Assembly: GCA_012271165.1 (NCBI GenBank)
Contig: JAAXGX010000152.1
Span: forward strand, 1-42,585
Source of the DNA: Vicinamibacteraceae bacterium
Lineage (GTDB): Bacteria > Acidobacteriota > Vicinamibacteria > Vicinamibacterales > UBA8438
DNA: 42,585 bases
Direction of reading: 5' to 3'
Below, piece by piece: positions 11,999 through 40,296 of the stretch. The notes beneath the pieces are model-generated. The model was not told the DNA's origin and searched no databases. It worked only from the letters and a program-made list of their open reading frames with translations. The first letter of the stretch is position 1. Each line of letters opens with the position of its first letter. Both the position numbers and the translations under genes were made by a program.

Positions 11999-12015
11999 AG
12001 CTCCTCTAATTGGAG
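11989..12015. terminator. Hairpin spanning two convergent stop codons
   Basis: CTCCAATT (11989-11996) pairs with AATTGGAG (12008-12015) across an 11-nt loop. It covers the last codons and stops of the carboxylesterase (plus) and the PQQ dehydrogenase (minus), which are only 7 bp apart. It could act as a bidirectional terminator; there is no classical U-tract. Confidence 0.35.
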
Positions 12016-20945: not shown

Positions 20946-21006
20946 GTCGCGGGCGGCCGGACCCGCGATGGTAAGATGCGTCCTGCAGCGGAAGCTGGAG
21001 GTGCGC

Positions 21007-23361: not shown

Positions 23362-24695
23362 TGATCGTAACGAAGATGGCGTTGCCGCGGCGCACGTTCC
23401 TGCGGGGGCTCGGTGCGACGTTCGCCCTGCCACTGCTCGATGCCATGGTGCCGGCGCTGAGCGCGGCGCCCCGGCCGGCCCGCCGCCTGGGCTACGTCTT
23501 CATCCCCATGGGGATGAACCCCGCGCCATGGATTCCAACGACGGACGGACGTCTCACGGCGCTGTCGCCGTCGCTGGCGGCGCTGACGCCGCACCTCGAC
23601 GACCTGACCGTGGTGACCAATCTGGAGATCCGGAATGCCTACACCGCCGGCAACCACGCGTCGTCGAACGCGGCGTTCCTGAGCTGCGTGGGCGGCAAGC
23701 GGACGGAAGGCAGCGACTACGAGCTGGGCACGACGGTCGATCAGATCGTGGCGAAGGCGGTGGGCGGCGAGACCGTGATCCCGTCGCTGGAGCTCGGCAC
23801 CGACCTGATCGCGCAGGTCGGGAACTGCGACAACGGCTTCGCCTGCGTCTACATGAACTGCCTGTCGTGGTCGTCGCCGACGACGCCGCTGCCGCCGGAG
23901 GCCGATCCGCGCGCCGTGTTCGAGCGTCTGTTCGGCGACGGCGGCACGCCGCAGGAGCGGCAGGCCGAGCTGCGGGCGAACGCCAGCATTCTCGACTGGG
24001 TGCTCGGCGACATGGCCCGCCTCCAGTCGCGTCTCGGGGCCGGCGACCGCACCCGGGTCAGCAACTACCTGGATACGGTGCGCGAGGTCGAGCGCCGCAT
24101 CCAGCGGGCGGAGCAGCATGCCGCCGCGTCGCCGCTCCCGGAGCTGGAGCGCCCGACCAGCGTCCCGGATTCCTGGGAGGAGCACGTCAAGCTGATGTTC
24201 GACCTGCAGGTGCTGGCGCTGCAGACCGATCTGACCCGGGTCATCACGTTCCAGCTCGCCCGCGAGGCGAGCACCCGCACCTATCCCCAGATCGGCGTGC
24301 CCGAGCCGCACCATCCGGTGTCGCACCACGTGAACGATCCCGAGAAGCTGACCAAGCTGGCCAAGATCAACGCCTACCACGTGTCGCTGTTCGCCTATCT
24401 GCTCGGACGGCTGCGCGCCACCGAGGACGGCGACGGGTCGCTGCTCGATCACACGACGTACCTGTACGGCAGCGGCATGGGCAACCCGAACGTGCACGAC
24501 CACAGCAACCTGCCGATCGTGATCGCGCGCGGCGGGGCGGGGGACGCGAAGGGGGGCTGGCACCTGCGCTACGCCGAGCCGACGCCGCTGGCCAACCTGC
24601 ATCTGACGCTGCTCGACTACATGGGCGTGCACCTGGACAACTTCGTGGACAGTACCGGCCGGGCCGGCCCGGTCCTCGAGCCGCTGACGTTGTAG
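23361..24695 (+). CDS. DUF1552 protein, Tat-exported
   Basis: A 444-residue member of the DUF1552 family, which almost always accompanies the DUF1592-type cytochrome. It has a twin-arginine signal (PRRTFLRGLG, residues 9-18). Conserved-looking segments include YVFIPMGMNPAPW, GNHASSNAAFLS, YLDTVREVERRI, EPHHPVSHH and the C-terminal LYGSGMGNPNVHDHSNLP, the last two rich in His and Asp and reminiscent of alkaline-phosphatase-like or sulfatase-like (DUF1501) metal sites. The ATG overlaps the previous stop by one base and GGAGG lies inside the previous gene's end. No biochemical function is established for the family that I know of; a partner role for the cytochrome is inferred from context. Confidence 0.9.
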   Translation: MIVTKMALPRRTFLRGLGATFALPLLDAMVPALSAAPRPARRLGYVFIPMGMNPAPWIPTTDGRLTALSPSLAALTPHLDDLTVVTNLEIRNAYTAGNHASSNAAFLSCVGGKRTEGSDYELGTTVDQIVAKAVGGETVIPSLELGTDLIAQVGNCDNGFACVYMNCLSWSSPTTPLPPEADPRAVFERLFGDGGTPQERQAELRANASILDWVLGDMARLQSRLGAGDRTRVSNYLDTVREVERRIQRAEQHAAASPLPELERPTSVPDSWEEHVKLMFDLQVLALQTDLTRVITFQLAREASTRTYPQIGVPEPHHPVSHHVNDPEKLTKLAKINAYHVSLFAYLLGRLRATEDGDGSLLDHTTYLYGSGMGNPNVHDHSNLPIVIARGGAGDAKGGWHLRYAEPTPLANLHLTLLDYMGVHLDNFVDSTGRAGPVLEPLTL

Positions 24696-24714
24696 CCGAC
24701 CGCGGAGGTCATCC

Positions 24715-26199
24715 ATGACGTGGAGGGTGCGGCTGATCGCGACCGCGGCGCTGGCGCTGCTGGCCGGCGGCGGGTCGAGCGCGGCGGTGGACGCGCGGCT
24801 GGTCGAGGCCGTCAAGCGGGCCGACGAAGTGGCGGTGCGGGCGCTGCTCGCGGCACAGGTCGATCCGAACCGCGCCGAGGCCGACGGCAGCACGCCGCTC
24901 CACTGGGCGGTGCACCGCGACCAGCTCGGCATCGCGAAGTTGCTGGTCCGCGCCGGTGCGCGGGCGACGGCCGCCAACCGCTACGGGGTTCGTCCGCTGT
25001 CGCTGGCGTGCATCAACGGCAATGCCGCCATGATCGAGCTGCTGCTCGACGCCGGGGCCGATCCGAACACGGTGCTGGCGGAGGGCGAGACCGCGCTGAT
25101 GACGGCGGCGCGCACGGGCGTCGTCGAGGCCGTGGAGCTGCTGCTGGCCCGCGGCGGCGACGTCAATGCCGCGGAGTCGTGGCGGGGGCAGACGGCGCTG
25201 ATGTGGGCGGCGGCGGAGGGCAACGCCGAGGTCGTTGCGGCGCTGCTCGCGCACGGGGCGGACGTCGGCGCGGCCTCGCAGAACGGCTTCACCGCGCTGC
25301 TGTTCGCGGCCCGCGAGGGGCGGATCGAGGCGGCCGAGCTGCTGCTCGACGCCGGCGCGCGCCTGGACGATGCGTTGTCGATCAACTCCGATCGGACGGC
25401 CCTCGGCGTCGAGAGGCGGCGGGCCTCCAGCGCGGGTCTCGACGCCTTGCTGCTGGCGGTGGGGAGCGCGCACTTCGAGCTGGCGGCGCGGCTGCTGGAG
25501 CGGGGGGCCGATCCCAACGCGGCGCCGCACGGGTGGACCGCGCTGCACCAGGTGTCGTGGGTGCGCAAGACCGGCGACTCCGGCACCAACGACCCCGCGC
25601 CCGAGGGCTCGGGCGACATGGACAGCCTCGAGTTCGTACGTGTGCTGGCGGCGAGGGGCGCGGACCTGAACGCCCGCGTCACGCTGAAGCCGCCCGCCGG
25701 GATCACAGAGCTGAACATGATCGGCGGCACGCCGTTCCTGCTGGCGGCTCGCACCGCGGATGCCGATCTGATGAGCCTGCTGGCCGATTTGGGCGCCGAC
25801 CCGCTGCTGGTCAACGAGGACAACACCACGCCGCTGATGGTGGCGGCCGGGGTGGGCACCCAGTCGCCGGGCGAGGATCCCGGCACCGAGCCGGAGGCGC
25901 TCGAGGCCGTCGAGGTGGCGCTGGCGCTGGGCGGCGAGCTGGACGCCGTGGACGACAACGGCGAGACGGCCATGCACGGGGCCGCCTACAAGCACCTGCC
26001 CGGCGTCGTGACCTTCCTGGCCGACCAGGGCGCGCGGATCGAGGTCTGGAATCGGGAGAACGCCAGGGGCTGGACGCCGTGGCGGATCGTTGCGGGCGTC
26101 CAGCGCGGGGCCAACATCGTCAGCTCGCCCGAGACGGAAGCGGCCGTGCGCGCCGTGATGGCGCGCGCCGGCGTCGGGCCGCCCGACGACCTGCCCTGA
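24715..26199 (+). CDS. Exported ankyrin-repeat protein
   Basis: A 494-residue protein with a signal peptide (to about residue 24) followed by roughly nine to ten ankyrin repeats. Clear repeat cores are GSTPLHWAVHRDQLGIAKLL, VRPLSLACINGNAAMIELLL, ETALMTAARTGVVEAVELLL, QTALMWAAAEGNAEVVAALL and FTALLFAAREGRIEAAELLL. Between repeats 6 and 8 there is a longer insertion containing SWVRKTGDSGTNDPAPEGSG. Ankyrin stacks are protein-binding scaffolds; in the periplasm this one may hold the neighbouring redox proteins together. GGAGG lies 7 bp before the ATG, 19 bp after the DUF1552 stop, so it is the last gene of the module. It converges with the next gene. Confidence 0.92.
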   Translation: MTWRVRLIATAALALLAGGGSSAAVDARLVEAVKRADEVAVRALLAAQVDPNRAEADGSTPLHWAVHRDQLGIAKLLVRAGARATAANRYGVRPLSLACINGNAAMIELLLDAGADPNTVLAEGETALMTAARTGVVEAVELLLARGGDVNAAESWRGQTALMWAAAEGNAEVVAALLAHGADVGAASQNGFTALLFAAREGRIEAAELLLDAGARLDDALSINSDRTALGVERRRASSAGLDALLLAVGSAHFELAARLLERGADPNAAPHGWTALHQVSWVRKTGDSGTNDPAPEGSGDMDSLEFVRVLAARGADLNARVTLKPPAGITELNMIGGTPFLLAARTADADLMSLLADLGADPLLVNEDNTTPLMVAAGVGTQSPGEDPGTEPEALEAVEVALALGGELDAVDDNGETAMHGAAYKHLPGVVTFLADQGARIEVWNRENARGWTPWRIVAGVQRGANIVSSPETEAAVRAVMARAGVGPPDDLP

Positions 26200-28813: not shown

Positions 28814-29761
28814 ATGACAGGCGCGTGTGCCGTGCTGGCGGGCGCCCTGCTGGTGCTGGCCCCGGGATGGGCGGCGGCGCAGCCGGCGGAGACCGCCGAC
28901 GTGCCGCGCACGCCGTGGGGCCAGCCCGACCTGGGCGGCGTGTGGGTCAACGGCACGACCACGCCGCTGGAGCGCCCGGAATCGTTCGGCGATCGGGAGT
29001 TCCTGAGGGAAGGCGAGGCAGAGGAGCTGCCACGGCAGTTGTTCACGGACCGCCTCGGACCGCTCACGGCACAGGAGCGTGCGCTGGCCGTCGAGGGTGG
29101 CCCGGCGTTGGCCGGGGACGGGCCGCTGAGCCGGCGGACGTCGCTCGTCACGGGGTCGACCGGCAGGATTCCGCCGCTCACCCCGGCGGCGCGGGAGCGT
29201 CTGGCCGACGGCCTCAACCAGTTCATCACCGAGCGGGCCGACTCGCACCAGGACCGGGGTTACAGCGAGCGCTGCCTGCGCTTCGTCAGCGGCGGGCCGC
29301 CGATGATGGCGTTCGGGGCCGCGAACGTCCACCACATCTTCCAGACCCCGGACCGGGTCGCGTTCCTCCACGAGGAGGGCCACGTCGTGCGCATCATCCA
29401 CCTCGACGCGCGGCCGCGCATCGACCCTCGCATCAGGCTCTGGAGCGGCGACTCGCGCGGCCGCTGGGAGGGCGACACCCTGGTCGTCGAGACGACGAAC
29501 TTCAACGGCGTCGACGGGTTCCGGGGATCGGGCCCGGGACTGCATCTCACCGAACGGCTGACCCGCGTCGACGACGAGACGATCTTGTACGGGTTCACGG
29601 TCGAGGACGTCGAGACGTGGACGGAGCCGTGGTCGGTCGAGATGCCGCTGCTGGCGTCGGCGGGGCAGCTCTACGAGCACGCGTGCCACGAGGGCAACTA
29701 CAGCCTGGTGAACATCCTGCGCGGCGCCCGGGTGCAGGAACGCGAGGCGGAGGCCCGCTGA
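28814..29761 (+). CDS. Unnamed secreted WEGDTLVVETTNF-family protein, member A
   Basis: A 315-residue exported protein (signal peptide ending AAAQPAET). It belongs to a family with four copies in this window and no name that I know. Shared features, in order, are: WGQPDLGGVW...TPLERP at the mature N-terminus; ERCLRFVSGGPPMM; an IFQTPDRV segment; GDSRGRWEGDTLVVETTNF; LTERLTRVDDETILYGFTV; WTEPWSVEMPL; and HACHEGNY near the C-terminus. The conserved Arg, Trp, Glu, Asp, Cys and His suggest either an enzyme or a ligand binder of mostly beta structure. AGGAGAGG lies upstream of the ATG. Members A and C (32629) form one subtype and B (31637) and D (37898) another. The carboxylesterase follows 23 bp downstream. 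Confidence 0.75.
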   Translation: MTGACAVLAGALLVLAPGWAAAQPAETADVPRTPWGQPDLGGVWVNGTTTPLERPESFGDREFLREGEAEELPRQLFTDRLGPLTAQERALAVEGGPALAGDGPLSRRTSLVTGSTGRIPPLTPAARERLADGLNQFITERADSHQDRGYSERCLRFVSGGPPMMAFGAANVHHIFQTPDRVAFLHEEGHVVRIIHLDARPRIDPRIRLWSGDSRGRWEGDTLVVETTNFNGVDGFRGSGPGLHLTERLTRVDDETILYGFTVEDVETWTEPWSVEMPLLASAGQLYEHACHEGNYSLVNILRGARVQEREAEAR

Positions 29762-29784
29762 AGCGCGGACCACTGGGGGGAGAG

Positions 29785-31497
29785 ATGGGGATTCGCGCGT
29801 GCAGCCACGCACGTGTGTGGCGTGGCGTGCTGCTCGCCGCGATGAGCGCTCTCGCGGCGGCCTGCGGGCAGCCGGAGGTCGAGACGGCGCCGGCCGCCAC
29901 GCTCGACCCGGGCGTTCCCGTGACCGTTGCGGGCGGCGAGCTGCGCGGCGCGGCCGCCGACGGCAACCCGGACATCGTCGCGTTCCGGGGCGTGCCCTAT
30001 GCCGCGCCGCCGGTCGGCGATCTCCGCTGGAGGCCGCCGCGGCCGGTGGTCGCGTGGGACGGGGTCCGGGACGCCTCCGCACCGGGTCCGATCTGCATGC
30101 AGACCGGCCCGGCCTGGGTGCGGGCGCCGGACGCGGGCGAGGACGACCCGGAGAGCGAGGACTGCCTCTTCCTCGACATCTGGGCGCCGCGGGAGAGCCG
30201 GGAGCCGCGGCCCGTGATGGTGTGGATTCACGGCGGCGGCTTCTTCAACGGCGCCGGGTCGCTCCCGATCTACGACGGCGCCCGCATCGCGGAGCGCGGC
30301 GTCGTCCTCGTGAGCATCAACTACCGGCTCAATGTCTTCGGCTTCTTCGCGCATCCCGCCCTGTCCGCCGAATCGCCGCACGACGCGTCGGGCAACTACG
30401 GCCTGATGGACATGGTGGCCGCGCTCGAGTGGGTGCGCGACAACATCGCGACGTTCGGTGGCGACCCGCAGCGGGTCACGATATTCGGGGAGTCGGCCGG
30501 CGGCGGCGCGGTGATGGCGCTGCTGCTGGCCCCGCAGACCGCGGGCCTGTTCCACCGCGCCATCTCGGGGAGCACTTGGGTGTACGGCTGGGACCGGGCG
30601 CTGCGCGAGCCGGTCGGCGCCGGGTCCACGGCCGAGGCGCAGGGCATCCGGATCGCCGAGTCGCTGGGCGCGTCCGGCGCGACGGCCCTGGCCACGCTGC
30701 GGGCCGCCACGGCGCAGGCGCTGCAGGCGGCGGCCAACGCCGACGCGGGCAGCCTGCTCATGCGGACCGGATACGTCTGGGCGCCGAACGTCGACGGCTG
30801 GATCGTGCCGAGCGACCCGCTCGGCATGTACGAGGCAGGCCTGCAGCACGACGTGCCGCTCATCACGGGCATGAACGCCGACGAAGGCGTGTCGGTCGCC
30901 CGCCGCGCGAACGTGGAGGACCGCGAGGCGTTCGAAGCACACGTGCGGACGGTCTACCCGGGCGTCGCGGACGAGCTGATCGCCCACTACGGCGTCGACT
31001 CGCCGGAGGCGGCGAGGTCGCAGATGGCGCAACTGGTTCACGACATGTCGTTCGCGGGCCCGGTGCGTGTGCAGGCGGAGTCTCACGCGAACGTCTCCGC
31101 ACCGGTCTGGCTGTATCACTTCACACGCGTGCCGCCCACCGCCCTGGGCGCCGTCGTGGGCGGTTCCTACCACGGCGGCGAGCTGGTGTACGTGTTCGGC
31201 ACGATGGCCGCCGGGCCGGGGCCGCCGGGCGGGCGTCCTCATCCGATGGCGGTCCACGGCGACTGGACCGAGACCGACCGCCGGCTGTCGGAGACGATGA
31301 TCGCCTACTGGACGGAGTTCGCCGCCACCGGCAATCCGAATCGCGGCGATCTGCCGGCGTGGCCGGAATTCGATCCGCCGGCTGGCAGGCACCTCGATCT
31401 CGGCGAGACCGTGGTCGCCGGCAAGGGGTTGCACGAGGCGGCCGGCCGGTTGTTCAGAAGCTTCGCGGCGAGCCGCCGGGCCCGGCCTGCCTGCTAA
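29785..31497 (+). CDS. Type-B carboxylesterase, lipoprotein-like
   Basis: A 570-residue type-B carboxylesterase related to the one at 10370-11998. A signal ending LAAAC (Cys27) suggests a lipoprotein. HGGG (149-152) is the oxyanion loop and Ser237 in GESAG is the nucleophile. GMNADEGVS and the SYHGGELVYVFG region probably carry the acid and the His. GGGGGGAGAG lies before the ATG at 29785. It sits between two members of the WEGDTLVVETTNF family, so the hydrolase and the unnamed proteins probably act together outside the cytoplasm. Substrate unknown. Confidence 0.92.
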   Translation: MGIRACSHARVWRGVLLAAMSALAAACGQPEVETAPAATLDPGVPVTVAGGELRGAAADGNPDIVAFRGVPYAAPPVGDLRWRPPRPVVAWDGVRDASAPGPICMQTGPAWVRAPDAGEDDPESEDCLFLDIWAPRESREPRPVMVWIHGGGFFNGAGSLPIYDGARIAERGVVLVSINYRLNVFGFFAHPALSAESPHDASGNYGLMDMVAALEWVRDNIATFGGDPQRVTIFGESAGGGAVMALLLAPQTAGLFHRAISGSTWVYGWDRALREPVGAGSTAEAQGIRIAESLGASGATALATLRAATAQALQAAANADAGSLLMRTGYVWAPNVDGWIVPSDPLGMYEAGLQHDVPLITGMNADEGVSVARRANVEDREAFEAHVRTVYPGVADELIAHYGVDSPEAARSQMAQLVHDMSFAGPVRVQAESHANVSAPVWLYHFTRVPPTALGAVVGGSYHGGELVYVFGTMAAGPGPPGGRPHPMAVHGDWTETDRRLSETMIAYWTEFAATGNPNRGDLPAWPEFDPPAGRHLDLGETVVAGKGLHEAAGRLFRSFAASRRARPAC

Positions 31498-31559
31498 GCT
31501 GTGCATGGCGTTGCGCGGCGCCGAACGGGGCCCGTGGACTCTGTCGAGCCAGGAGCGGC

Positions 31560-31580
31560 GCGGGGCTATGGGGTCCCCGC
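31560..31580 (+). other. GC hairpin in the leader of member B
   Basis: GCGGGG (31560-31565) pairs with CCCCGC (31575-31580) across a 9-nt loop, 14 bp before the repeated leader hairpin at 31594. The 139-bp gap 31498-31636 holds no gene but two stem-loops, either a terminator for the esterase or part of a regulatory leader. Confidence 0.4.
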
Positions 31581-31593
31581 AAGCGGACGCCGG

Positions 31594-31614
31594 GGGTTCG
31601 GGGCGCAGCCCCGT
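31594..31614 (+). repeat. Repeated leader hairpin, copy 2
   Basis: Identical over 21 bp to 17580-17600, with the same CGGGGC-GCA-GCCCCG stem-loop (31599-31613) and the same downstream arrangement: GAAGC, then GGAGG, then the ATG 22 nt later (31637). Confidence 0.6.
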
Positions 31615-31636
31615 CTGATAGAAGCTGGAGGGTGCG

Positions 31637-32605
31637 ATGAGACGTGCGATGACCGCGTTGGCGGGTGTTCTGCTGGTGCTCGCGCCGGCCGCGGCGGCGG
31701 CGCAGGCCGGCGGCGGGGAGACGTGGCGGACGGCCTGGGGCGATCCCGACCTGCAGGGGACATGGACGAACACCACCACGACGCCGATGGAGCGTCCGAG
31801 CGAGTACGAGGGGCGGACGGCGCTGACCGACGAGGAGCGCGCCGAGCTGGACGCGCTGGCTGCGAGCCGCCGGGACCGCGAGCCGCCGCCCGGCAGCACG
31901 GGCGCGTACAACAGCTTCTGGGTCGAGAGCGGGCAACGCTCCGCCCAGACCTCGCTCGTGATCGATCCGCCCGACGGGCAGCTTCCCGCGCTCACCGACC
32001 GGGTGCGCGAGCGGGACGCCGCGGTGGCCGCGTCGAGGAACGCCGCGCCCGACTCGTACACCGACCTGAACCTGTACGACCGGTGCATCACGCGCGGCCT
32101 GCCGGGGGCGATGATCCCCGGCTTCTACAACCACAACTACCAGATCTTCCAGACGCCCGACCACGTCGTGATCCTCGTCGAGATGATCCACGACGCGCGC
32201 ATCGTCCCGCTGGACGGTCGGGCGCCTGCGCCGGAGGGCGTCGGCCAGTGGCTGGGCCATTCGCGCGCCCGCTGGGAAGGCGAGACCCTGGTGGTCGAGA
32301 CCACCAACTTCAGCCCCGGGGCGGACGAGCGGGCGGTCAGCGGGCGGCTGCACCTCGTGCTGGCCGCCGGCGAGCGGCTCCACCTCGTCGAGCGCTTCAC
32401 GCGCGTGGACGCCGACACCATCGACTACCGGTTCACCGTCAACGACCCGCAGACGTACGCGCAGCCGTGGACGGCGTCCATCCCGATGAGCCGCATCGAC
32501 GGGCCGCTGTTCGAGTATGCCTGCCACGAAGGCAACTACGGCCTCGAGAACATCCTGCGCGGCGCGCGGAACCAGGAGCGCGCGGCCGAGGCCGGGTCGC
32601 GGTAG
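31637..32605 (+). CDS. Unnamed secreted WEGDTLVVETTNF-family protein, member B
   Basis: A 322-residue exported protein (signal peptide to about residue 22, AAAAAQ). It shares with member D the B/D subtype features: WGDPDLQGTWTN...TPMERP, QTPDHVVILVEMIHDARIVPLDGR, and LGHSRARWEGETLVVETTNF. It differs from the others in having His for Asp before SR and Ala for Gly after it. It then has LHLVERFTRVDADTIDYRFTV, YAQPWTASIPM and YACHEGNY. Between TTNF and ERF it has an insertion with a repeated LHLV. GGAGG precedes the ATG at 31637. Member C follows 23 bp downstream. No function is known to me; the conserved acidic/His pair in EMIHDAR is a candidate active or binding site. Confidence 0.75.
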   Translation: MRRAMTALAGVLLVLAPAAAAAQAGGGETWRTAWGDPDLQGTWTNTTTTPMERPSEYEGRTALTDEERAELDALAASRRDREPPPGSTGAYNSFWVESGQRSAQTSLVIDPPDGQLPALTDRVRERDAAVAASRNAAPDSYTDLNLYDRCITRGLPGAMIPGFYNHNYQIFQTPDHVVILVEMIHDARIVPLDGRAPAPEGVGQWLGHSRARWEGETLVVETTNFSPGADERAVSGRLHLVLAAGERLHLVERFTRVDADTIDYRFTVNDPQTYAQPWTASIPMSRIDGPLFEYACHEGNYGLENILRGARNQERAAEAGSR

Positions 32606-32628
32606 CCGGTAGGAGAGGAGAGGGGTCC

Positions 32629-33573
32629 ATGCGTCGAGTGCCGCTCGTGATGCTCGTGCTGCTGCTGCCGGTCCCGGGAGCGGCCCAGCCGGCGGAGACC
32701 GCCGACATCCCGCGCACGCCGTGGGGCCGGCCGGCCCTCACCGGCGTGTGGACCAACTCGAGCCTGACACCGCTCGAGCGCCCGGACGAGTACGGCGACC
32801 GGGAGCTCCACACAGCGGACGAGCTCGTCGAGCTGCAACGGACCGCCGTCCAGCGGCGCATCGACGCGCTCCGCGGGCCGGAAGCCATCCTGGCCGTCGA
32901 GTTCAGCGAGATCTGGATGGAGCCGGGCGCGCTGAGCGGGCGGACGTCGCTGATTACCGGGCCGACCGGCAAGATTCCGCCCTACACGCCCGAGGCCGAG
33001 GAGCGGCTGGCCGACGGCCTCCGCCAGCCGATGACCCAGCGGGCCGACTCCCACGACGATCGGGGCTACAGCGAGCGCTGCCTGCGCTTCGTCACCGGCG
33101 GCCCGCCGATGATGGCGTTCCCGTTCGCCCCTCTCGTTCAGATCGTCCAGACCCCGGACCACGTGGTGATCCAGACCGAGGAGAACCACGAGACCCGGAT
33201 CGTGCACCTCGACGATCGACCCCACGTGGATCCCCGGATACGGCTCTGGCGCGGCGACTCCCGGGGACGCTGGGAGGGCGACACCCTGGTGATCGAGACC
33301 ACGAACTTCAACGGCATGGGCGGGTTCCGGAACTCCGGTCCCGAGCTGCACCTGACCGAGCGGCTGACGCGGGTGGACGCCGACACCATCCTGTACGGCT
33401 TCACGGCCGACGATCCCGGGACCTGGACCGAGCCGTGGTCGGCCGAGATGCCGTTGCGGGTGTCTCCGGCGCCGACCTACGAACACGCCTGCCACGAGGG
33501 CAACTACACCCTGCCGCTCGTCCTGAGCGGCGCTCGCGCGCAGGAGCGCCGGGCGGAGGAGGGGGCGAGGTAG
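32629..33573 (+). CDS. Unnamed secreted WEGDTLVVETTNF-family protein, member C
   Basis: A 314-residue exported protein (signal peptide MRRVPLVMLVLLLPVPGAAQ). It is very close to member A: RTPWGRPALTGVWTN...TPLERP, ERCLRFVTGGPPMMAF, IRLWRGDSRGRWEGDTLVIE, NFNGMGGFRNSGPELHLTER and EHACHEGNY are shared with few changes. The near identity suggests a duplication of an A-type gene placed on the far side of the esterase and member B. GAGAGGGG precedes the ATG at 32629. It ends the rightward run; the VapBC pair converges on it. Confidence 0.75.
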   Translation: MRRVPLVMLVLLLPVPGAAQPAETADIPRTPWGRPALTGVWTNSSLTPLERPDEYGDRELHTADELVELQRTAVQRRIDALRGPEAILAVEFSEIWMEPGALSGRTSLITGPTGKIPPYTPEAEERLADGLRQPMTQRADSHDDRGYSERCLRFVTGGPPMMAFPFAPLVQIVQTPDHVVIQTEENHETRIVHLDDRPHVDPRIRLWRGDSRGRWEGDTLVIETTNFNGMGGFRNSGPELHLTERLTRVDADTILYGFTADDPGTWTEPWSAEMPLRVSPAPTYEHACHEGNYTLPLVLSGARAQERRAEEGAR

Positions 33574-33662
33574 TCGCCGCGGGCCGACGCGCTGACGGCG
33601 CAAGCGAGTGCGGTCGGTGCGACAAGGCCTGTCTGTATGCGCGACAGCTGTCTCGAAGACGC

Positions 33663-34103
33663 TCAGGACGCACACAACGGATCGACGACCGTCAGAAACG
33701 GAAAGCGGCGGAAGTCGGTGTCGCGCGTGCAAATCCGGTTGACCCCGTGCTCCCGCATCAGCACGGCCGTGTGTACGTCGTGCATCACGTTGCCGTGCAG
33801 ATCGGGCAGTTCCGACAGGGTCCGTGCGAGGGTAGCCGCATGACGCGGGGTCGCCACCAGCACTTCGACCCCCGGCGACGCCAGCAACGCCTCGATGTAG
33901 GCCCGGGCCTCCGGCAACGTCCACGGGTTCACCGGGGTGCGAGCGTGGGTGGTCACCCGCAGAAACTCATAGCAGATGCTCCAGGTGACGAAGGTGGGTG
34001 ACACATCGTCGCGCGCCCGCGCCAAGCGATCACGGCACGGAGCGTGAAACGGAGAATCCTCGTCGGCCGCGTAGACCAGCACGTTCGTATCGAAGACAAG
34101 CAC
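33663..34103 (-). CDS. vapC: PIN-domain toxin (VapC-type)
   Basis: A 146-residue PIN-domain ribonuclease toxin. The acidic active-site residues are in place: Asp5 (VFDTNVLVYA), Glu46 (CYEFLRV), Asp109 (MHDVHTAVL) and Asp128/Asp130 (TRDTDF). VapC toxins cleave tRNA or rRNA and are neutralised by their antitoxin. The GTG at 34103 directly follows the antitoxin stop codon (TGA-GTG), so the two are coupled. The catalytic set is complete, so the toxin is probably functional. Confidence 0.9.
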   Translation of the reverse strand: MLVFDTNVLVYAADEDSPFHAPCRDRLARARDDVSPTFVTWSICYEFLRVTTHARTPVNPWTLPEARAYIEALLASPGVEVLVATPRHAATLARTLSELPDLHGNVMHDVHTAVLMREHGVNRICTRDTDFRRFPFLTVVDPLCAS

Positions 34104-34346
34104 TCATTCTTCCTCTTCCATGGCCTGATAGAGCGCGTCGCGGTCGGCGATATCGACCCTGAATCCTCCGCTGTGCCACGTGGGCAACGGCGCCAGCCCG
34201 CCTGACGGGGCATCCATCTGCTTGGGTTCGGCCAGCACGCGTCTGAGGCCGGCCTCCACGAGCGCGGACATCGTTGTGCCGCGCCGCGCTGCCGCCTCCC
34301 GCAACCGCTGGATCACCGAGTCGTCGATGTTGAGCGTCGTCTTCAT
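34104..34346 (-). CDS. vapB: Ribbon-helix-helix antitoxin (VapB-type)
   Basis: An 80-residue antitoxin. The N-terminal ribbon-helix-helix (MKTTLNIDDSVIQRLREAAA...TMSALVEAGLRRVL, residues 1-39) would bind operator DNA. The C-terminal part (FRVDIADRDALYQAMEEEE) is acidic and would wrap the toxin. It is encoded immediately before the PIN toxin. A palindrome just upstream of its ATG is a plausible autoregulatory operator. The pair lies beside an IS630 remnant, in keeping with a mobile island. Confidence 0.88.
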   Translation of the reverse strand: MKTTLNIDDSVIQRLREAAARRGTTMSALVEAGLRRVLAEPKQMDAPSGGLAPLPTWHSGGFRVDIADRDALYQAMEEEE

Positions 34347-34347
34347 G

Positions 34348-34361
34348 TATGGAAAACCATA
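34348..34361 (-). promoter_or_regulatory. Putative VapB operator palindrome
   Basis: TATGG-AAAA-CCATA is a perfect 5-bp inverted repeat with a 4-nt spacer, ending 1 bp upstream of the vapB ATG (34346). Palindromes of this kind at the start of toxin-antitoxin operons are the usual sites of ribbon-helix-helix autorepression. Confidence 0.5.
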
Positions 34362-34375
34362 TCACGGTTCCGTAA

Positions 34376-34734
34376 GAGAGCAACGGGGAGACGCCGGGGG
34401 TGCCGTGTCGCCGATAGTCATGCGTTCGCCGTTCGGCCTGGCGAGGCTGCATCGGCAGCAAGGGCGCGGTGCGGTCGACGGCTTGAATCTGGGACTTCTC
34501 GTCGACGCACAGCACGACGGCCTGGTCGTGCGGCTTGACGTAGAGGCCGACGATGTCGGGGGCCTTCTCGATCAACAGCGGGTCGGGCGACAGCTTGAAG
34601 GTCTCGCTCCGGTGGGGACGCAGCCCGAAGGCCCGCCAGTTGCGGCGCGGTGCGTGACCGCCGCGCCATCGACCAAGGTGCTGCCGCTCAGCTTCGGTGA
34701 GCACGATGGTAACCGTTGGGCGTCCTGCTCGCAT
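34376..34734 (-). pseudogene. IS630-family transposase remnant, internally deleted
   Basis: The reading frame keeps an IS630-type N-terminus (MRAGRPTVTIVLTEAERQHL) and then jumps, around residue 22-32, to the start of the DDE catalytic domain (FGLRPHRSETFKLSPDP, then VLCVDEKSQIQAVDRT with the first catalytic Asp, and QAERRTHDYRRHG). The helix-turn-helix region of roughly 110 residues is missing, and recognisable homology stops near 34380, so the later catalytic residues are lost. The open frame runs on to 34030 only by reading through the antisense of vapB. It is a dead fragment. Confidence 0.75.
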
Positions 34735-34833
34735 ACCATCTCTTTGGGCGGAAAAGTAGGGATCTATAGACTAAATAGCGCTTGGAAGCCAGCTTCTAAT
34801 CGATTCACCACAGCTCTTACTCAGCGACCCTGG

Positions 34834-34857
34834 CCACCAAATACGCCACCAAATACG
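34834..34857 (+). repeat. 12-bp perfect tandem duplication
   Basis: CCACCAAATACG occurs twice head to tail (34834-34845 and 34846-34857) and ends exactly where the 14-bp hairpin begins. Confidence 0.85.
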
Positions 34858-34892
34858 GTGTCGTGCATCATCAGGAACATGATGCACGACAC
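34858..34892. repeat. Perfect 14-bp inverted repeat with 7-nt loop
   Basis: GTGTCGTGCATCAT (34858-34871) and ATGATGCACGACAC (34879-34892) are exact reverse complements around CAGGAAC. There is no T-run after it, so it is not a typical terminator. A second inverted repeat, CATGGTTG (34897-34904) with CAACCATG (34923-34930), follows at once. Confidence 0.85.
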
Positions 34893-35042
34893 GCCTCATG
34901 GTTGTTATGGGCCAAGCGAAGGCAACCATGGGACGGTGGGCGAACTAGACATCAAGTCGCGATCGGCGCGACGGGCAAGGTGTGTTTCTTGTGGTCGGAC
35001 CTCCGGTGCGACGAGGTGCGATCCGCCAGCCGCCGCCCCGGC

Positions 35043-36215
35043 TCAGGCGATGCTTACCGTGCGCGGGAACTGCTGGTGGTTCTCCAGGCCCGTCTGCTTG
35101 TACTCCAGCTCCTCGGCGGTCGGCTGCACCCGGCCCTCGGCGTCGGTGGCGCGGGAGACGAGCGTGTGCTCGCCGGGGGTGGCGCCGTCCCAGTCGTAGC
35201 GGAACAGCTTCCAGGAGTAGGTGTCGGAGGCCGTGGCCGCGTCCAGCGCGGCGGGCTGCCAAGCGCCGCCGTCCACGCTGACCTCGACGGACTGCAGCGG
35301 GGTGCCGTCGTGGAGCACGAAGCCGTGGACCGTGTGGCGGCCGCCCGCGCGCGTCACGCGCGCGATGACCGACTTGACCCGCAGGCGGGTGATCTCGGTC
35401 TCGTGGTAGCTCACCTCGCCGTCGATCTCCTCGGCCCACAGCGTGCGGTACCAGCGGGCCTGCCACTTGCCCAGGAAGCGGTCCTGCTGCGCCCGGATGC
35501 GGGTCAGCCACTTGACGTTGCTGACGCCGTACCAGCCGGGTACGACGAGGCGCAGGGGGAAGCCCTGGTCGCGGGTGAGCGGCTCGCCGTTGAGCGCATA
35601 GGCCAGCAGCGGGTCGGGCCCCAGGGCGTCGGTGCGCGACATGCTGCGGGCGAACGGCTGATCGACCGCGTGGGTCTGCCCGCGGAAGTCGACCATCTCC
35701 TCGCCGTGGTCCGCGCCGAAGAAGACCACTTCGCGGGCCAGATCACGCAGGCCGACGTGCTCGAGCACCGTGCGCAGGCGGACGCCGGTCCAGCGGCCGT
35801 TGCTGGCCAGTCCCTGAATCATGCGGGGACTGTTGCCGGAGCATTCGAAGCCGGCGACGGTCTCGTCGCTGCCCATGCCGCGCAGGTCGGCGAGGGAGAG
35901 CTCTGCCGGCCGCTCGACCAGGCCGCTGATCTTCAGGCTGAACGCGCCGGGGTCGATCTCCGGCTTGTCGAAGTGCTGGATGGTGTAGAAGTCGTCGCGG
36001 GACGTGAGCGGGCCGGTGATCGTGCGGATGTCGAGGACCCGCCACGTCGGTCCGAGCGCCCCGCTGCCGAACTCGTCCGGCACGTCCGTGAACGGCACGA
36101 GCTCCTCGCCCTGGGCCAGGGCCGGCAGGGCCAGCTCCGGCCATCCGAACATGCCCAGGCCGGCGGCGGCGAGGCCGCCCTTCAGTAGCGTTCGACGGGT
36201 CGTCTGGTTCGCCAT
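35043..36215 (-). CDS. Sulfite oxidase-type molybdopterin oxidoreductase, Tat-exported
   Basis: A 390-residue molybdoenzyme with a twin-arginine signal (TTRRTLLKGGLAAAG). The sulfite-oxidase fold domain carries the molybdenum-ligating Cys125 in GFECSGNSP, and GWYGVSNVKWL is typical of the family's cofactor-binding end. The C-terminal Mo-co dimerisation (Ig-like) domain covers about residues 275-385 (VHGFVLHDGTPLQSVEVSVDGG). The length is normal for SorA/SoxC-type periplasmic enzymes. No haem domain and no SorB-type cytochrome gene is adjacent, so the electron acceptor is elsewhere. Sulfite is the default substrate, but the family is broader. It lies upstream of, and on the same strand as, nothing obviously linked. 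Confidence 0.92.
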   Translation of the reverse strand: MANQTTRRTLLKGGLAAAGLGMFGWPELALPALAQGEELVPFTDVPDEFGSGALGPTWRVLDIRTITGPLTSRDDFYTIQHFDKPEIDPGAFSLKISGLVERPAELSLADLRGMGSDETVAGFECSGNSPRMIQGLASNGRWTGVRLRTVLEHVGLRDLAREVVFFGADHGEEMVDFRGQTHAVDQPFARSMSRTDALGPDPLLAYALNGEPLTRDQGFPLRLVVPGWYGVSNVKWLTRIRAQQDRFLGKWQARWYRTLWAEEIDGEVSYHETEITRLRVKSVIARVTRAGGRHTVHGFVLHDGTPLQSVEVSVDGGAWQPAALDAATASDTYSWKLFRYDWDGATPGEHTLVSRATDAEGRVQPTAEELEYKQTGLENHQQFPRTVSIA

Positions 36216-36289
36216 CGTCTCATCCCTTCCGCTCGGATCGGCCGCCGCGACTGCACGGGATGCAGGTTACCACAGTCGGGGCGCGCGCC

Positions 36290-37132
36290 TCAGAACGCGT
36301 AGCGCATGGAAACGACGAGTCCATGGCCCGCGAGGTCGGCCGTCGTCTCGGCCAGCGCGATCTCCAGCGGCTCCCGTCTTCCGTCGCGCCACACGATGCG
36401 GCCGGCGCCGCGCCCGGTGTCGACAGCGCCCAGGTGCGTGTAGCGCCAGGCGACGTCGAGCGTCACCCCTGGTCCCAGGGCCGTTGCCACGCCCGCTGCG
36501 GGCATCCAGGCCAGGCTGACCTGCGGTCCGCCGGGTACGACCGTCGTGGTCCGCGGGAATTCCATGCGGGTCTCGCCAATCTCGACGCGGGACACGCCAG
36601 CGCCGCCGCCGGCGAACGGGACGAAGGGACCGAGACGGGGCAGGCCGAGCGCCGGGAGGTCCAGATACGCGGCCAGCAGGCCGGAGACCGCAGAGACGTC
36701 GGCAGAGACGTCCTGCCTGCCGCTGGTCTGGACGAAGTTCGCGCGCCCCTCGAACGGGGTCCGCGGGCGATGCACGACCACGGCCTCGATCCGCAGCGCG
36801 GCTCCCGCCGCGTAGCCGACCCCGAGCTCGTAGCCCGCCGTCGTCCCGAAACCGCCCAGGGTGCTCAGCGGCGCGCCGTCGAGCCCCGTGCCGCAGCCGT
36901 AGAGGGCGGCCGGCGACTCGCTGGCGCAGTTACGGTCCGCGAACCGCGCGCGGGCCGGGTGGTCGAGCACGGCTCCCGTGCGGAGATAGAGATCGTTGGG
37001 CGCCGGGGCCGACTGCGCGGACACGGCGGCGGTCCCGGCCGTCACGAGCGCCGCGGCCGCCGTTGCGGCCAGGGTGGCCCGGGGTCCTGCCGTGCGGCCG
37101 CGGCCGCGGCCGTCCTTCCGGTTGCCTGCCAT
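36290..37132 (-). CDS. Outer-membrane beta-barrel protein
   Basis: A 280-residue protein with a basic N-terminus (GNRKDGRGRGR) and a signal peptide ending AVSAQ. The mature part is rich in alternating strands (YELGVGYAAGAALRIEAVVV, FVPFAGGGAGVSRVEI, VTLDVAWRYTHLG) and ends with the outer-membrane signature GLVVSMRYAF (terminal Phe). It resembles small porin/OmpW or surface-antigen barrels. I chose the ATG at 37132 because GGGAG sits 6 bp upstream, whereas the ATG at 37138 directly abuts it. A Cys pair (NCASES...YGCG) may form a periplasmic or surface disulfide. Function unknown. Confidence 0.75.
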   Translation of the reverse strand: MAGNRKDGRGRGRTAGPRATLAATAAAALVTAGTAAVSAQSAPAPNDLYLRTGAVLDHPARARFADRNCASESPAALYGCGTGLDGAPLSTLGGFGTTAGYELGVGYAAGAALRIEAVVVHRPRTPFEGRANFVQTSGRQDVSADVSAVSGLLAAYLDLPALGLPRLGPFVPFAGGGAGVSRVEIGETRMEFPRTTTVVPGGPQVSLAWMPAAGVATALGPGVTLDVAWRYTHLGAVDTGRGAGRIVWRDGRREPLEIALAETTADLAGHGLVVSMRYAF

Positions 37133-37172
37133 GCGCATCTCCCGTTGCCGCCTGACCGGCGGGCGGCGGCGC

Positions 37173-37178
37173 TATAAT
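37173..37178 (+). promoter_or_regulatory. Candidate -10 box (TATAAT)
   Basis: A perfect TATAAT in the 82-bp divergent gap, 36 bp upstream of the ATG at 37215. No clear -35 at standard spacing. Confidence 0.5.
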
Positions 37179-37214
37179 GCCTTTTCCGGCTCAATTCCGC
37201 ACGAGGGGGACCTG

Positions 37215-37901
37215 ATGACGGCGGCCAGACTCGCACGCGCGGCAATGTTGGCCGCTCTGCTCTCGGCGCCGGGTACGGCCTGGTCGCAGGCTGCCGGCGG
37301 GGGCGGGCTGCCGCCGACGATCCCGCTCTTCCCGCTGCAGGACGTCGTCCTGTTCCCGAACATGTCGCGCCCCCTGCACATCTTCGAGGAGCGCTACCGC
37401 GACATGGTGACCGAGGCGGTCCAGGGCGACGGACTGATCGGGATGGTGCTGCTGCGGCCCGGCTACGAAGCGGACTACGAGGGCAATCCGCCCATCTTCG
37501 AGGTCGGCTGCGCGGGCGAGATCGTGCAGGCCGAGGAGCTCGACGACGGCCGCTGGCTCATCCTCCTGGAGGGCACGGTCCGCTTCCGTGTGCTCGGCGA
37601 GGACCACAGCCGGTCGTACCGCGTGGCCGACGTCGAGGCGCTGGCGGAGCAGAACGACCAGGACGACCGGCGCGTGCTGCGCGGCTATCGCGAGCAGCTC
37701 GCCGAGGTGTTCACCGCCATGGCGCCCAGCCGCGACACGCCGCCCGAGGACGTGTCGGACACGGATCTGGTCAACGCGCTGTCGCAGTTCCTGCCGCTCG
37801 CTCCGGAGGACCGCCAGGCGCTGCTCGAGGCGGCCGGGCCGCGGGCGCGCGCCGAGGCGCTGTTCGCGCTGATCGGCGAGCCGGCCGGGGGACCGCGGTG
37901 A
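37215..37901 (+). CDS. Exported LON substrate-binding (LAN-type) domain protein
   Basis: A 228-residue protein whose body matches the N-terminal substrate-binding domain of Lon protease: IPLFPLQDVVLFPNMSRPLHIFEERY (residues about 36-61), then GLIGMVLLRPGYE, VGCAGEIVQAEELDDGRWLILLEG and RFRVLG. Stand-alone proteins of this type are usually cytoplasmic. Here a hydrophobic N-terminus (RAAMLAALLSAPGTAWSQ) looks like a cleavable signal, which is unusual. The GAGGGGG upstream of the ATG at 37215 supports this start. No ATPase or protease domain follows. The stop overlaps the next start by 4 bp (GTGA), so it is coupled to member D of the unnamed family. Function unknown. Confidence 0.8.
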   Translation: MTAARLARAAMLAALLSAPGTAWSQAAGGGGLPPTIPLFPLQDVVLFPNMSRPLHIFEERYRDMVTEAVQGDGLIGMVLLRPGYEADYEGNPPIFEVGCAGEIVQAEELDDGRWLILLEGTVRFRVLGEDHSRSYRVADVEALAEQNDQDDRRVLRGYREQLAEVFTAMAPSRDTPPEDVSDTDLVNALSQFLPLAPEDRQALLEAAGPRARAEALFALIGEPAGGPR

Positions 37902-38947
37902 CGCCCGGGCGCCGCGCCGCGCGCGCGGCGGGCGTGCCGCTGCTGCTGGCCGCCGTGGCGCTGGCGCCAGCGGCGGCCGGCGCCCAGACCGGAGCGTCCG
38001 GACCGCAGCGAACCGCCTGGGGCGATCCCGATCTGCAGGGCGTCTGGGACTTCCGCACGATCACGCCGATGGAGCGGCCGGCGGAGCTGGCCGGCAAGGC
38101 GCTGCTGACCGCCGAGGAGGCCGCCGGCTTCGAGGCGCGGGAGAACCGGCGCCAGAACCGCGATCTGGTCGATCCGGAGCAGGGCGGGGCCATCTATCCG
38201 CCGGCCTCGGAAGGCGGGGTGGTGCCGTACAACGAGTTCTGGTACGACCGCGGCTCGTCGCTCGCGGCGGGCGGCCGCACGTCGCTCATCGTCGATCCGC
38301 CGGACGGACGGCTTCCGCCGCTGGTGCCGGGCACGGCGCAGCAGGGGCGCGCGGTCAGCGCCGACGTCGCCGGCGAACGCCCCGTCCGGTTCCGCAGCGG
38401 CGGGATCGGGGCGGACGGGCCGGAGGACCGCGCGCTCGGCGAGCGCTGTCTGCTCGGCTTCAACGCCGGGCCGCCGGTCATCCCCAGCGCCTACAACAAC
38501 ACGCTGCAGGTGCTGCAGACGCCCGACCACGTGGTGATCCTGAACGAGATGATCCACGACGCCCGCATCGTGCCGCTGGACGGCCGGGCGCATCTCGCGC
38601 CGTCGATCCGGCAGTGGATGGGCGATTCCCGCGGGCGCTGGGAGGGCGCCACGCTGGTGGTCGAGACCACCAACTTCAGCGCCAAGACGTCGAGCTTCAA
38701 TCCGACCATTCAGAGCGCCGTCGGCACGGGCGCGACGTTGCGTCTGGTGGAGAGGTTGACGCGGACCGGCGCGGGCGCGCTGCGCTACGAGTTCACCGTG
38801 GACGATCCCCACACCTTCACGCGGCCGTTCACCGGCGTCATTCCCATGGCGACGGCCGACGGACCGCTCTTCGAGTACGCCTGCCACGAGGGCAACTACG
38901 GGATGTTCAATCTTCTTGCGGGCGCCCGCGCGCAGGAACGACGGTGA
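37898..38947 (+). CDS. Unnamed secreted WEGDTLVVETTNF-family protein, member D
   Basis: A 349-residue exported protein, the longest of the four family members. The GTG at 37898 overlaps the LON-domain stop and opens a signal peptide ending AAAGAQ. The family core is present: WGDPDLQGVW...TPMERP, NTLQVLQTPDHVVIL, EMIHDARIVPLDGR, MGDSRGRWEGATLVVE, RLVERLTRTGAGALRYEFTV, FTRPFTGVIPM and YACHEGNYG. It has an extra segment at about residues 130-170 (VPGTAQQGRAVSADVAG). It groups with member B. The exported epoxide hydrolase follows 68 bp downstream. Function unknown; the recurring neighbours (hydrolases) suggest a secreted catabolic role. Confidence 0.75.
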   Translation: MTPGRRAARAAGVPLLLAAVALAPAAAGAQTGASGPQRTAWGDPDLQGVWDFRTITPMERPAELAGKALLTAEEAAGFEARENRRQNRDLVDPEQGGAIYPPASEGGVVPYNEFWYDRGSSLAAGGRTSLIVDPPDGRLPPLVPGTAQQGRAVSADVAGERPVRFRSGGIGADGPEDRALGERCLLGFNAGPPVIPSAYNNTLQVLQTPDHVVILNEMIHDARIVPLDGRAHLAPSIRQWMGDSRGRWEGATLVVETTNFSAKTSSFNPTIQSAVGTGATLRLVERLTRTGAGALRYEFTVDDPHTFTRPFTGVIPMATADGPLFEYACHEGNYGMFNLLAGARAQERR

Positions 38948-39015: not shown

Positions 39016-40296
39016 ATGACTGCGATGAGAACGTCGACGCCGCGCCCACTGGCCATGGCGCTTCTGCTGCTCGCGGCACTCGGACTGCTCGGCCCGCGCT
39101 TTCTCGGCCCCGTGGTCGTCGCGGGCCAGTCGGGCGCCGCTGAGGCCACGCCGTTCACCATCGACGTGCCGGACGCGGCGCTCGACGACCTGCAGCGGCG
39201 GCTGGCCCGCGCCCGCTTTCCGGACGAGCTCGACGGATCGGGCTGGACGCGCGGCACGGACCTGACCTACCTGCGGCAGCTCGTCGAGTACTGGCGGGAC
39301 GGCTACGACTGGCGCGCGCAGGAGCGTACGCTGAACGAGTTCCCGCACTTCACCATGAACGTCGACGGGCTGGACGTGCACTTCATCCATCGCCGCTCGC
39401 CGGAGCCGGACGCGCTGCCGCTCATGCTGATCCACGGCTGGCCCGGCACCTTCTTCGAGTTCTGGAAGACGGTCGACCGGCTCGCCGATCCGGTCCGCCA
39501 CGGCGGGAACGCGGAGGACGCCTTCCACGTGGTCGTCCCGTCGCTGCCCGGCTACGGGTTCTCGGAGCGCCCGCGCCGGATGGGGCACTCGCGGCGGCGG
39601 ACGGCCCGGATGTTCATGGAAGTGATGGCGCGGCTGGGCTACGACCGCTACGGCGTGCAGGCCGGCGACGTCGGCGCGAGCGTGGCGCACAACATGGCCG
39701 TGTACGACGCCGACCGCGTGGCGGGGCTGCACCTCAACAGTTGCGGCGGCGCGCCGCCCGACCCCGACAACCCGCACGCCGGCCTGACGGACGCCGAGAT
39801 CGAGCGGCTGCGCGAGCGGCGCGAGTACTTCAGCGACGAGGAGCGGGGCTATCAGCGCATCCAGGCGACCCGGCCGCAGACGCTCGGCTACGGGCTGAAC
39901 GATTCGCCCGTGGGCTTGGCCGCCTGGATCGTCGAGAAGTACCGCACCTGGTGCGACTGCGGCGGCGATCCGGAAGCAATCTTCACGAAGGACGAGCTGC
40001 TGAACACGGTGATGATCTACTGGGTGACGGAGACCGCCACTTCGGCGGCCCGCTACTACTACGAGGGCCAGCACATTCCCGAGCCGCCGTACGTGCCGCC
40101 GACCGACCGGGTGGCGGTGCCGACCGGCTGCACCGTCTTCCCCGGGGAGCTCGGCTTCAGCCCGCGGAGCTGGGCGGAGACCCGCTACAACGTCCAGCGG
40201 TTCACGTACATGGAGCGCGGCGGGCACTTCGCCGCGCTGGAGCAGCCGGAGCTGTTCAGCGACGAGCTGCGGGCGTTCTACCGCGAACTGCGCTAG
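39016..40296 (+). CDS. Exported epoxide hydrolase-type alpha/beta hydrolase
   Basis: A 426-residue alpha/beta hydrolase of the juvenile-hormone/microsomal-type epoxide hydrolase family. A signal peptide or anchor (about residues 10-35) precedes the N-terminal epoxide-hydrolase domain (PFTIDVPDAALDDLQRRLARARFPDEL). HGWPG (140-144) forms the oxyanion loop, and Asp218 in QAGDVGAS is in the nucleophile position. The His lies in ERGGHFAALEQPEL near the C-terminus. Such enzymes open epoxides to diols; most are cytoplasmic or membrane-bound, so export here is notable. GAGGGAGAGG precedes two in-frame ATGs (39016, 39025). The DUF5916 gene follows 34 bp downstream. Confidence 0.9.
   Translation: MTAMRTSTPRPLAMALLLLAALGLLGPRFLGPVVVAGQSGAAEATPFTIDVPDAALDDLQRRLARARFPDELDGSGWTRGTDLTYLRQLVEYWRDGYDWRAQERTLNEFPHFTMNVDGLDVHFIHRRSPEPDALPLMLIHGWPGTFFEFWKTVDRLADPVRHGGNAEDAFHVVVPSLPGYGFSERPRRMGHSRRRTARMFMEVMARLGYDRYGVQAGDVGASVAHNMAVYDADRVAGLHLNSCGGAPPDPDNPHAGLTDAEIERLRERREYFSDEERGYQRIQATRPQTLGYGLNDSPVGLAAWIVEKYRTWCDCGGDPEAIFTKDELLNTVMIYWVTETATSAARYYYEGQHIPEPPYVPPTDRVAVPTGCTVFPGELGFSPRSWAETRYNVQRFTYMERGGHFAALEQPELFSDELRAFYRELR

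Follow-up and report, generated by a model that had tools for sequence, protein, structure and literature searches.

Four related genes and their surroundings

The window, by which we mean the whole 42,585-nucleotide stretch of a Vicinamibacteraceae contig (JAAXGX010000152.1) that was analysed, carries four related genes, members A to D, together with a carboxylesterase, a LON-domain gene and an epoxide hydrolase.

28814..29761, + strand: member A, long subfamily, N-terminal signal sequence, sister of C
29785..31497, + strand: secreted carboxylesterase between A and B (PF00135, E 2e-116)
31637..32605, + strand: member B, long subfamily, signal sequence, start possibly at 31649
32629..33573, + strand: member C, long subfamily, N-terminal signal sequence
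37131..37901, + strand: secreted LON substrate-binding-domain protein (PF02190), overlaps D, start uncertain
37898..38947, + strand: member D, long subfamily, signal sequence, GTG start
39055..40296, + strand: epoxide hydrolase (EHN plus alpha/beta hydrolase; PF06441, E 4e-42) downstream of D, start uncertain

All four reading frames are genuine, with the starts and strand given above, and the same frames were chosen by a codon-usage gene caller. D starts at a GTG that shares bases with the stop codon of the LON-domain gene before it (GTGA). The products of A to D (~315-350 aa) all begin with signal sequences, in keeping with the secretion that had been proposed for them, export itself being what these sequences imply. 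Relative to A, identity is 45% for B, about 64-66% for C and 41% for D, and in a search of the whole genome A and C match at E 8e-129; the similarity among the four thus far exceeds chance. Their four-way alignment has 88 invariant columns and upholds the ordered motifs described previously (G-x-W, TP.ERP, QTPD.V, W(E)G.TLV.ETTNF, ER.TR and ACHEGNY). As to the two motifs that the earlier note called strict, CHEGNY is present in all four, while GDSRGRWEG is found in three, B having GHSRARWEG instead; among long members of the genome (n=104), 82 have strict CHEGNY, 35 strict GDSRGRWEG and 103 the looser C.E.N. Of two proposed subtypes, A/C is borne out by a tree of the genome's members that joins them as sisters (support 0.998). 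The same tree places B and D each nearer to other paralogues than to one another, so a B/D subtype is not real.

The A-D neighbourhood is mostly syntenic in a sister species of the same genus, where the order is PSD/DUF1552/ankyrin/PIG-L, then B', C', the carboxylesterase and another member, a molybdopterin oxidoreductase, and finally LON, D' and the epoxide hydrolase. Here the carboxylesterase adjoins C', the order of the LON gene and D is kept, and the epoxide hydrolase start meets the end of D', so that the pairing of D with the epoxide hydrolase is conserved. The cassette at 20872-26199 (planctomycete-type cytochrome/PSD domains, DUF1552 and an ankyrin protein) is likewise syntenic, and genes like it recur near other family members. 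Between C and D, at 33663-34734, a PIN-domain-like toxin/antitoxin-like pair and a transposase-like fragment were recognised by eye, and near the matching point a further family member occurs in the sister species. Also in the sister species, a small exported GTW-motif protein (L176:4107-4634, +) is encoded immediately upstream of a family member.

Copy number, spread and age of the family

To speak of four copies, as the earlier note did, is a large undercount. A search with C alone returned 153 matching pieces in the window's genome (3.72 Mb, 72% complete, a fragmented assembly), and at least 119 genes of the family lie in 719 kb of stretches from that genome, of which 115 encode 240 aa or more. 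These 119 comprise 111 genes of the long and 8 of a short kind, and if the genome is taken to have roughly 3,200 genes, we estimate the family's share at about 3-4%. Copy counts derive from single-protein searches and DNA stretches, and profile-search figures, capped at 54 or 9 per genome, are lower bounds. At least 54 matches occur in each of the 24 other genomes of the window's taxonomic family. A relative assembled in three contigs, with a 6.1 Mb chromosome, has 110, and hence the expansion is no assembly artefact.

Outside the window's taxonomic family the spread is patchy, and carriers often hold multiple copies. The family occurs in 31 of 247 Acidobacteriota genomes and in 9 of 299 from the phylum of a gammaproteobacterial carrier; among 16 carrier genomes examined, 15 have 18 to 156 matches (18-57 in the marine gammaproteobacterial ones) and one, from Gemmatimonadota, has 2. 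Distant, shorter relatives annotated as ‘hypothetical protein’ are found on sphingomonad plasmids. On one of these (Sphingobium sp. TomTYG65, L173:7668-10196) unnamed genes, a relative among them, are arranged as tandem pairs beside a TonB receptor, a tauD-like gene and monooxygenases.

Comparison with the same-genus species speaks to the age of the copies. Of 50 members compared, 33 are reciprocal best hits with the window's genome (median identity 80%), and 29 of these are clearly closer to their counterpart than to the nearest paralogue. The sister-species orthologues of B, C and D are 83%, 82% and 91% identical (dN 0.12 / dS 0.53, dN 0.13 / dS 0.59 and dN 0.08 / dS 0.37, respectively), which places dN/dS at about 0.21-0.24 and the copies under purifying selection. 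Together with the synteny, these orthologues and low ratios indicate that the copies are old and individually maintained.

A second subfamily, shorter at ~260 aa and often encoded beside long members, begins with G-x-W as they do and keeps their ordered core and two cysteines. It is without the full CHEGNY ending (His277, Gly279 and Asn280 in the numbering below are missing), and it has no match in Pfam or NCBIfam.

Conserved residues and predicted fold

Conservation was scored over 313 long members in the numbering of mature B, the stretch used for modelling (31697-32602). Gly94, Cys130, Gln152, Arg168, Gly187, Glu232 and Cys276 are 99-100% conserved, and Glu162, Trp193, Tyr244, Thr247, Asp250, Glu273, His277, Glu278 and Asn280 reach 95-99%. 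Three sites in B serve as landmarks.

31757..31765, + strand: G-x-W codons (Gly21-Trp23), predicted strand A; Gly21 98%, Trp23 93% conserved
32084..32086, + strand: Cys130 codon, proposed half of a disulfide, conserved in at least 99%
32522..32539, + strand: CHEGNY codons (Cys276-Tyr281), start of the C-terminal helix in the model

Beyond residue 30, most long members of this genome (92 of 107) contain two cysteines and no more, which suggests a single disulfide, and Cys130 probably pairs with Cys276. The short subfamily keeps both cysteines as well as equivalents of Glu162, Arg168, Glu232, Asp250 and Glu278.

That the family is unnamed, as previously noted, is correct: neither Pfam nor NCBIfam holds a model that covers it, and searches of PDB sequences found no solved relative. 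Sequence searches of Pfam, NCBIfam and PDB gave no confident match to a characterised domain; they returned three BRANT_His_rich matches (best E 3e-5), and the C-terminal domain of phospholipase C (PF05506) was rejected: among the four it matched D only, at 13.7 bits, below the Pfam cut-off of 24.4, and in a wider set it matched one of 116 members. A viral fold library gave no useful match. In the open-licence papers searched, we found no mention of the family motifs and nothing relevant on DUF6152 (see below) or on reported expansions.

AlphaFold modelled mature B from a 116-row alignment with a pLDDT of 87.6 and a pTM of 0.87, and a short member with values of 91.8 and 0.87. Both models have the same predicted topology, namely a G-x-W first strand, helices, a second strand, a meander and a C-terminal helix, with eight strands beyond the first and hence nine counted. 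In Foldseek searches of the PDB with either model, iLBP-type barrels (SAHS, FABP, CRBP, CRABP) lead the matches, the long model also matching NanoLuc and UnaG. Best E-values are 6e-4 (long) and 1.3e-3 (short) at a probability of about 1.0, and TM-scores are mostly 0.4-0.6 when normalised to the target and only about 0.2-0.37 when normalised to the query, the latter being low because the barrel match leaves a large part of the protein uncovered. By strand order and Foldseek matches, both models are thus predicted to be of the calycin/iLBP fold class, which, given such modest E-values and TM-scores, is an assignment to a fold class and not membership of a family.

The family resembles several known groups. 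With the iLBPs (FABP, CRBP, CRABP), small barrels that carry fatty acids and retinoids in animals, its models share the G-x-W first strand, the helices between strands A and B and the up-and-down meander. In contrast to these cytosolic proteins of ~135 residues with a helix-turn-helix lid, members are apparently exported, have a mature length of about 240-320 residues (about 300 in the long subfamily), carry an insertion of ~120 residues after strand A, a C-terminal helix and a probable disulfide, and show no detectable sequence similarity; no Pfam family or PDB sequence match supports placing them in the FABP/iLBP family proper. Tardigrade SAHS proteins, secreted FABP-like barrels too, head the Foldseek list for the long model (E 6.4e-4), but they are about half as long, 12% identical and eukaryotic stress proteins, and a PDB sequence library that includes SAHS structures gave no match, so the similarity is one of fold only. 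Lipocalins, exported calycin-type barrels of eight strands, likewise have a G-x-W motif on strand A. Nine strands are counted in the models, and Foldseek ranks iLBP folds first, listing one lipocalin, nitrophorin 7, at low probability.

DUF6152 and other neighbours

Within pooled loci chosen for holding the family, where gene calling was seeded with family genes, DUF6152 (PF19649) was adjacent and co-directional to a family gene in 33 of 36 cases and mostly lay immediately downstream. As such a choice of loci could by itself produce linkage, we retested it from the DUF6152 side, on stretches picked by genome-wide DUF6152 searches: in three genomes, 18 of 21 have a same-strand family gene within 400 bases, where chance would predict a few per cent if the family makes up 2-4% of genes. 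Among related genomes, DUF6152 occurs in 29 of 30 with the family and in 0 of 10 without it, and in the annotation of two sphingomonad plasmid records it lies next to the distant relatives, a third showing a similar arrangement of unnamed genes. DUF6152, a separate family of ~100 residues, is the sole specific partner gene of the family. The linkage does not mark a single clade; it takes 25 changes on the tree, fewer than the 38.5 seen with shuffled labels. DUF6152 proteins (e.g. L152:13285-13728) have an A-x-A-type signal site directly followed by an invariant His-His, as well as an invariant NPH.W. The mature protein probably starts with His-His, and these residues and NPH.W may form an N-terminal metal site.

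Beyond this partner, neighbours are very diverse. The close co-directional ones (123 proteins) span 135 Pfam families, which argues against a constant pathway operon and leaves no pathway pinned down. Commonest among them are PQQ dehydrogenase domains, with 7 members; the window itself has PQQ-dependent dehydrogenase-type genes at 3-1379, 12009-13991 and 18966-20945, and PQQ-propeller candidates are very numerous in the genome (175 pieces for PF13360, unscored and given no weight here). The expected association with esterases and epoxide hydrolases is not general: with two carboxylesterases among the 123 neighbours and one epoxide hydrolase seen, the link is local. No consistently linked transport gene emerged among the neighbours.

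Fusions to enzymes

In the window's genome, the sister species and the relative with the 6.1 Mb chromosome, two VOC/glyoxalase-like modules precede a family domain within one exported protein.

L155:9769-11496, - strand: exported VOC-VOC-family-domain protein, from one of the three genomes
L188:12606-14342, + strand: exported VOC-VOC-family-domain protein, from one of the three genomes
L150:6547-8301, + strand: exported VOC-VOC-family-domain protein, from one of the three genomes

Moreover, a GDSL esterase is fused to a family domain in the relative with the 6.1 Mb chromosome, and in a genome from Gemmatimonadota a short member carries a DUF3089 hydrolase. Each of these fusions is a single open frame. 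Binding modules typically occur joined to a range of unrelated enzymes, and the fusions favour such a role.

Interpretation

The genes documented above are related, numerous, old and kept by selection, with a predicted barrel fold, a DUF6152 partner and enzyme fusions. On this footing we tentatively favour, at somewhat less than even confidence, a model in which exported calycin/iLBP-like barrels bind small organic molecules and present them to extracytoplasmic catabolic enzymes. As judged from their signal sequences, the proteins would reach the periplasm or the outside, where the barrel may take up small, probably hydrophobic, molecules and hand them to partner enzymes. The scaffold would be held by the putative Cys130-Cys276 disulfide and by Gln152, Glu162, Arg168, Glu232, Tyr244, His277, Glu278 and Asn280, and over 100 diverged copies might reuse it, every one for another substrate; the ‘lid’ insertion that separates strand A from strand B, which is less conserved, is the probable site of tuning. 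Export, a calycin-like barrel with a polar core, old paralogues and enzyme fusions together point to secreted binders, or perhaps transformers, of varied small molecules. The earlier idea of an enzyme or ligand-binding family rather than a structural one fits the predicted barrel and the fusions and so finds partial support.

Which of these two functions applies is less clear, as the near-invariant polar set favours an enzyme and the fusions to unrelated enzymes favour a binding module. That the proteins are calycin-type lyases, isomerases, cyclases or hydrolases, whose polar residues are catalytic and whose paralogues differ in substrate, strikes us as possible though doubtful. Gln152, Glu162, Arg168, Glu232, Tyr244, Glu273, His277, Glu278 and Asn280 are 95-100% kept, more than is usual for ligand binders of varied specificity, the short subfamily retains equivalents of Glu162, Arg168, Glu232, Asp250 and Glu278, and the VOC, GDSL and DUF3089 fusions would also suit consecutive catalytic steps. 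No catalytic motif was recognised, however; fusion and adjacency to unrelated enzymes look more like those of a binding module, and the short subfamily does without His277, Gly279 and Asn280. A purely structural role for the conserved residues, in abundant exported protectants or envelope components comparable to tardigrade SAHS, is improbable to our minds: while a SAHS protein heads the PDB matches of the long model and the invariant positions include many Gly, Pro, Trp and Cys, neither more than 100 diverged, individually conserved copies nor conserved enzyme fusions would be expected of a bulk protectant. As for the expansion stemming from faulty assembly, from contamination or from selfish amplification of recent date, the incomplete, fragmented genome might invite such a reading, but it is hardly credible, being already contradicted by the counts in the three-contig relative and in all 24 other genomes of the taxonomic family and by syntenic orthologues with low dN/dS.

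Returning to the exported binding barrels that we favour, their repertoire recalls that of SusD-like proteins, which occur as many diverged exported copies per genome and are thought to divide substrates among themselves; the family differs in its fold and in having no constant transporter partner. While the fold class is already known, its architecture, scale and partners here are, as far as our searches show, undescribed. It is rare for a bacterial gene family to exceed 100 old, diverged and individually conserved copies per genome, and this one seems multiplied in several separate lineages (Vicinamibacterales, other Acidobacteriota and marine Gammaproteobacteria). Should every copy deal with a compound of its own, the family would amount to a readable catalogue of the diet of these uncultured bacteria, and its fold, probable disulfide, residue set, DUF6152 partner and enzyme fusions offer an assayable starting point. 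A wider and rather unlikely proposition is that a calycin scaffold underlies a previously unnamed family of exported enzymes or receptors which, together with DUF6152 as a possible metal protein with an exposed N-terminal His-His, forms a main toolkit for extracytoplasmic small-molecule catabolism in several uncultured marine and soil lineages, at ~3-4% of genes. As to what the substrates might be, the window has a linalool dehydratase/isomerase match at 8603-10342 (PF18566, E 1.7e-16), and such a gene along with the epoxide hydrolase weakly hints at terpenoid-like compounds.
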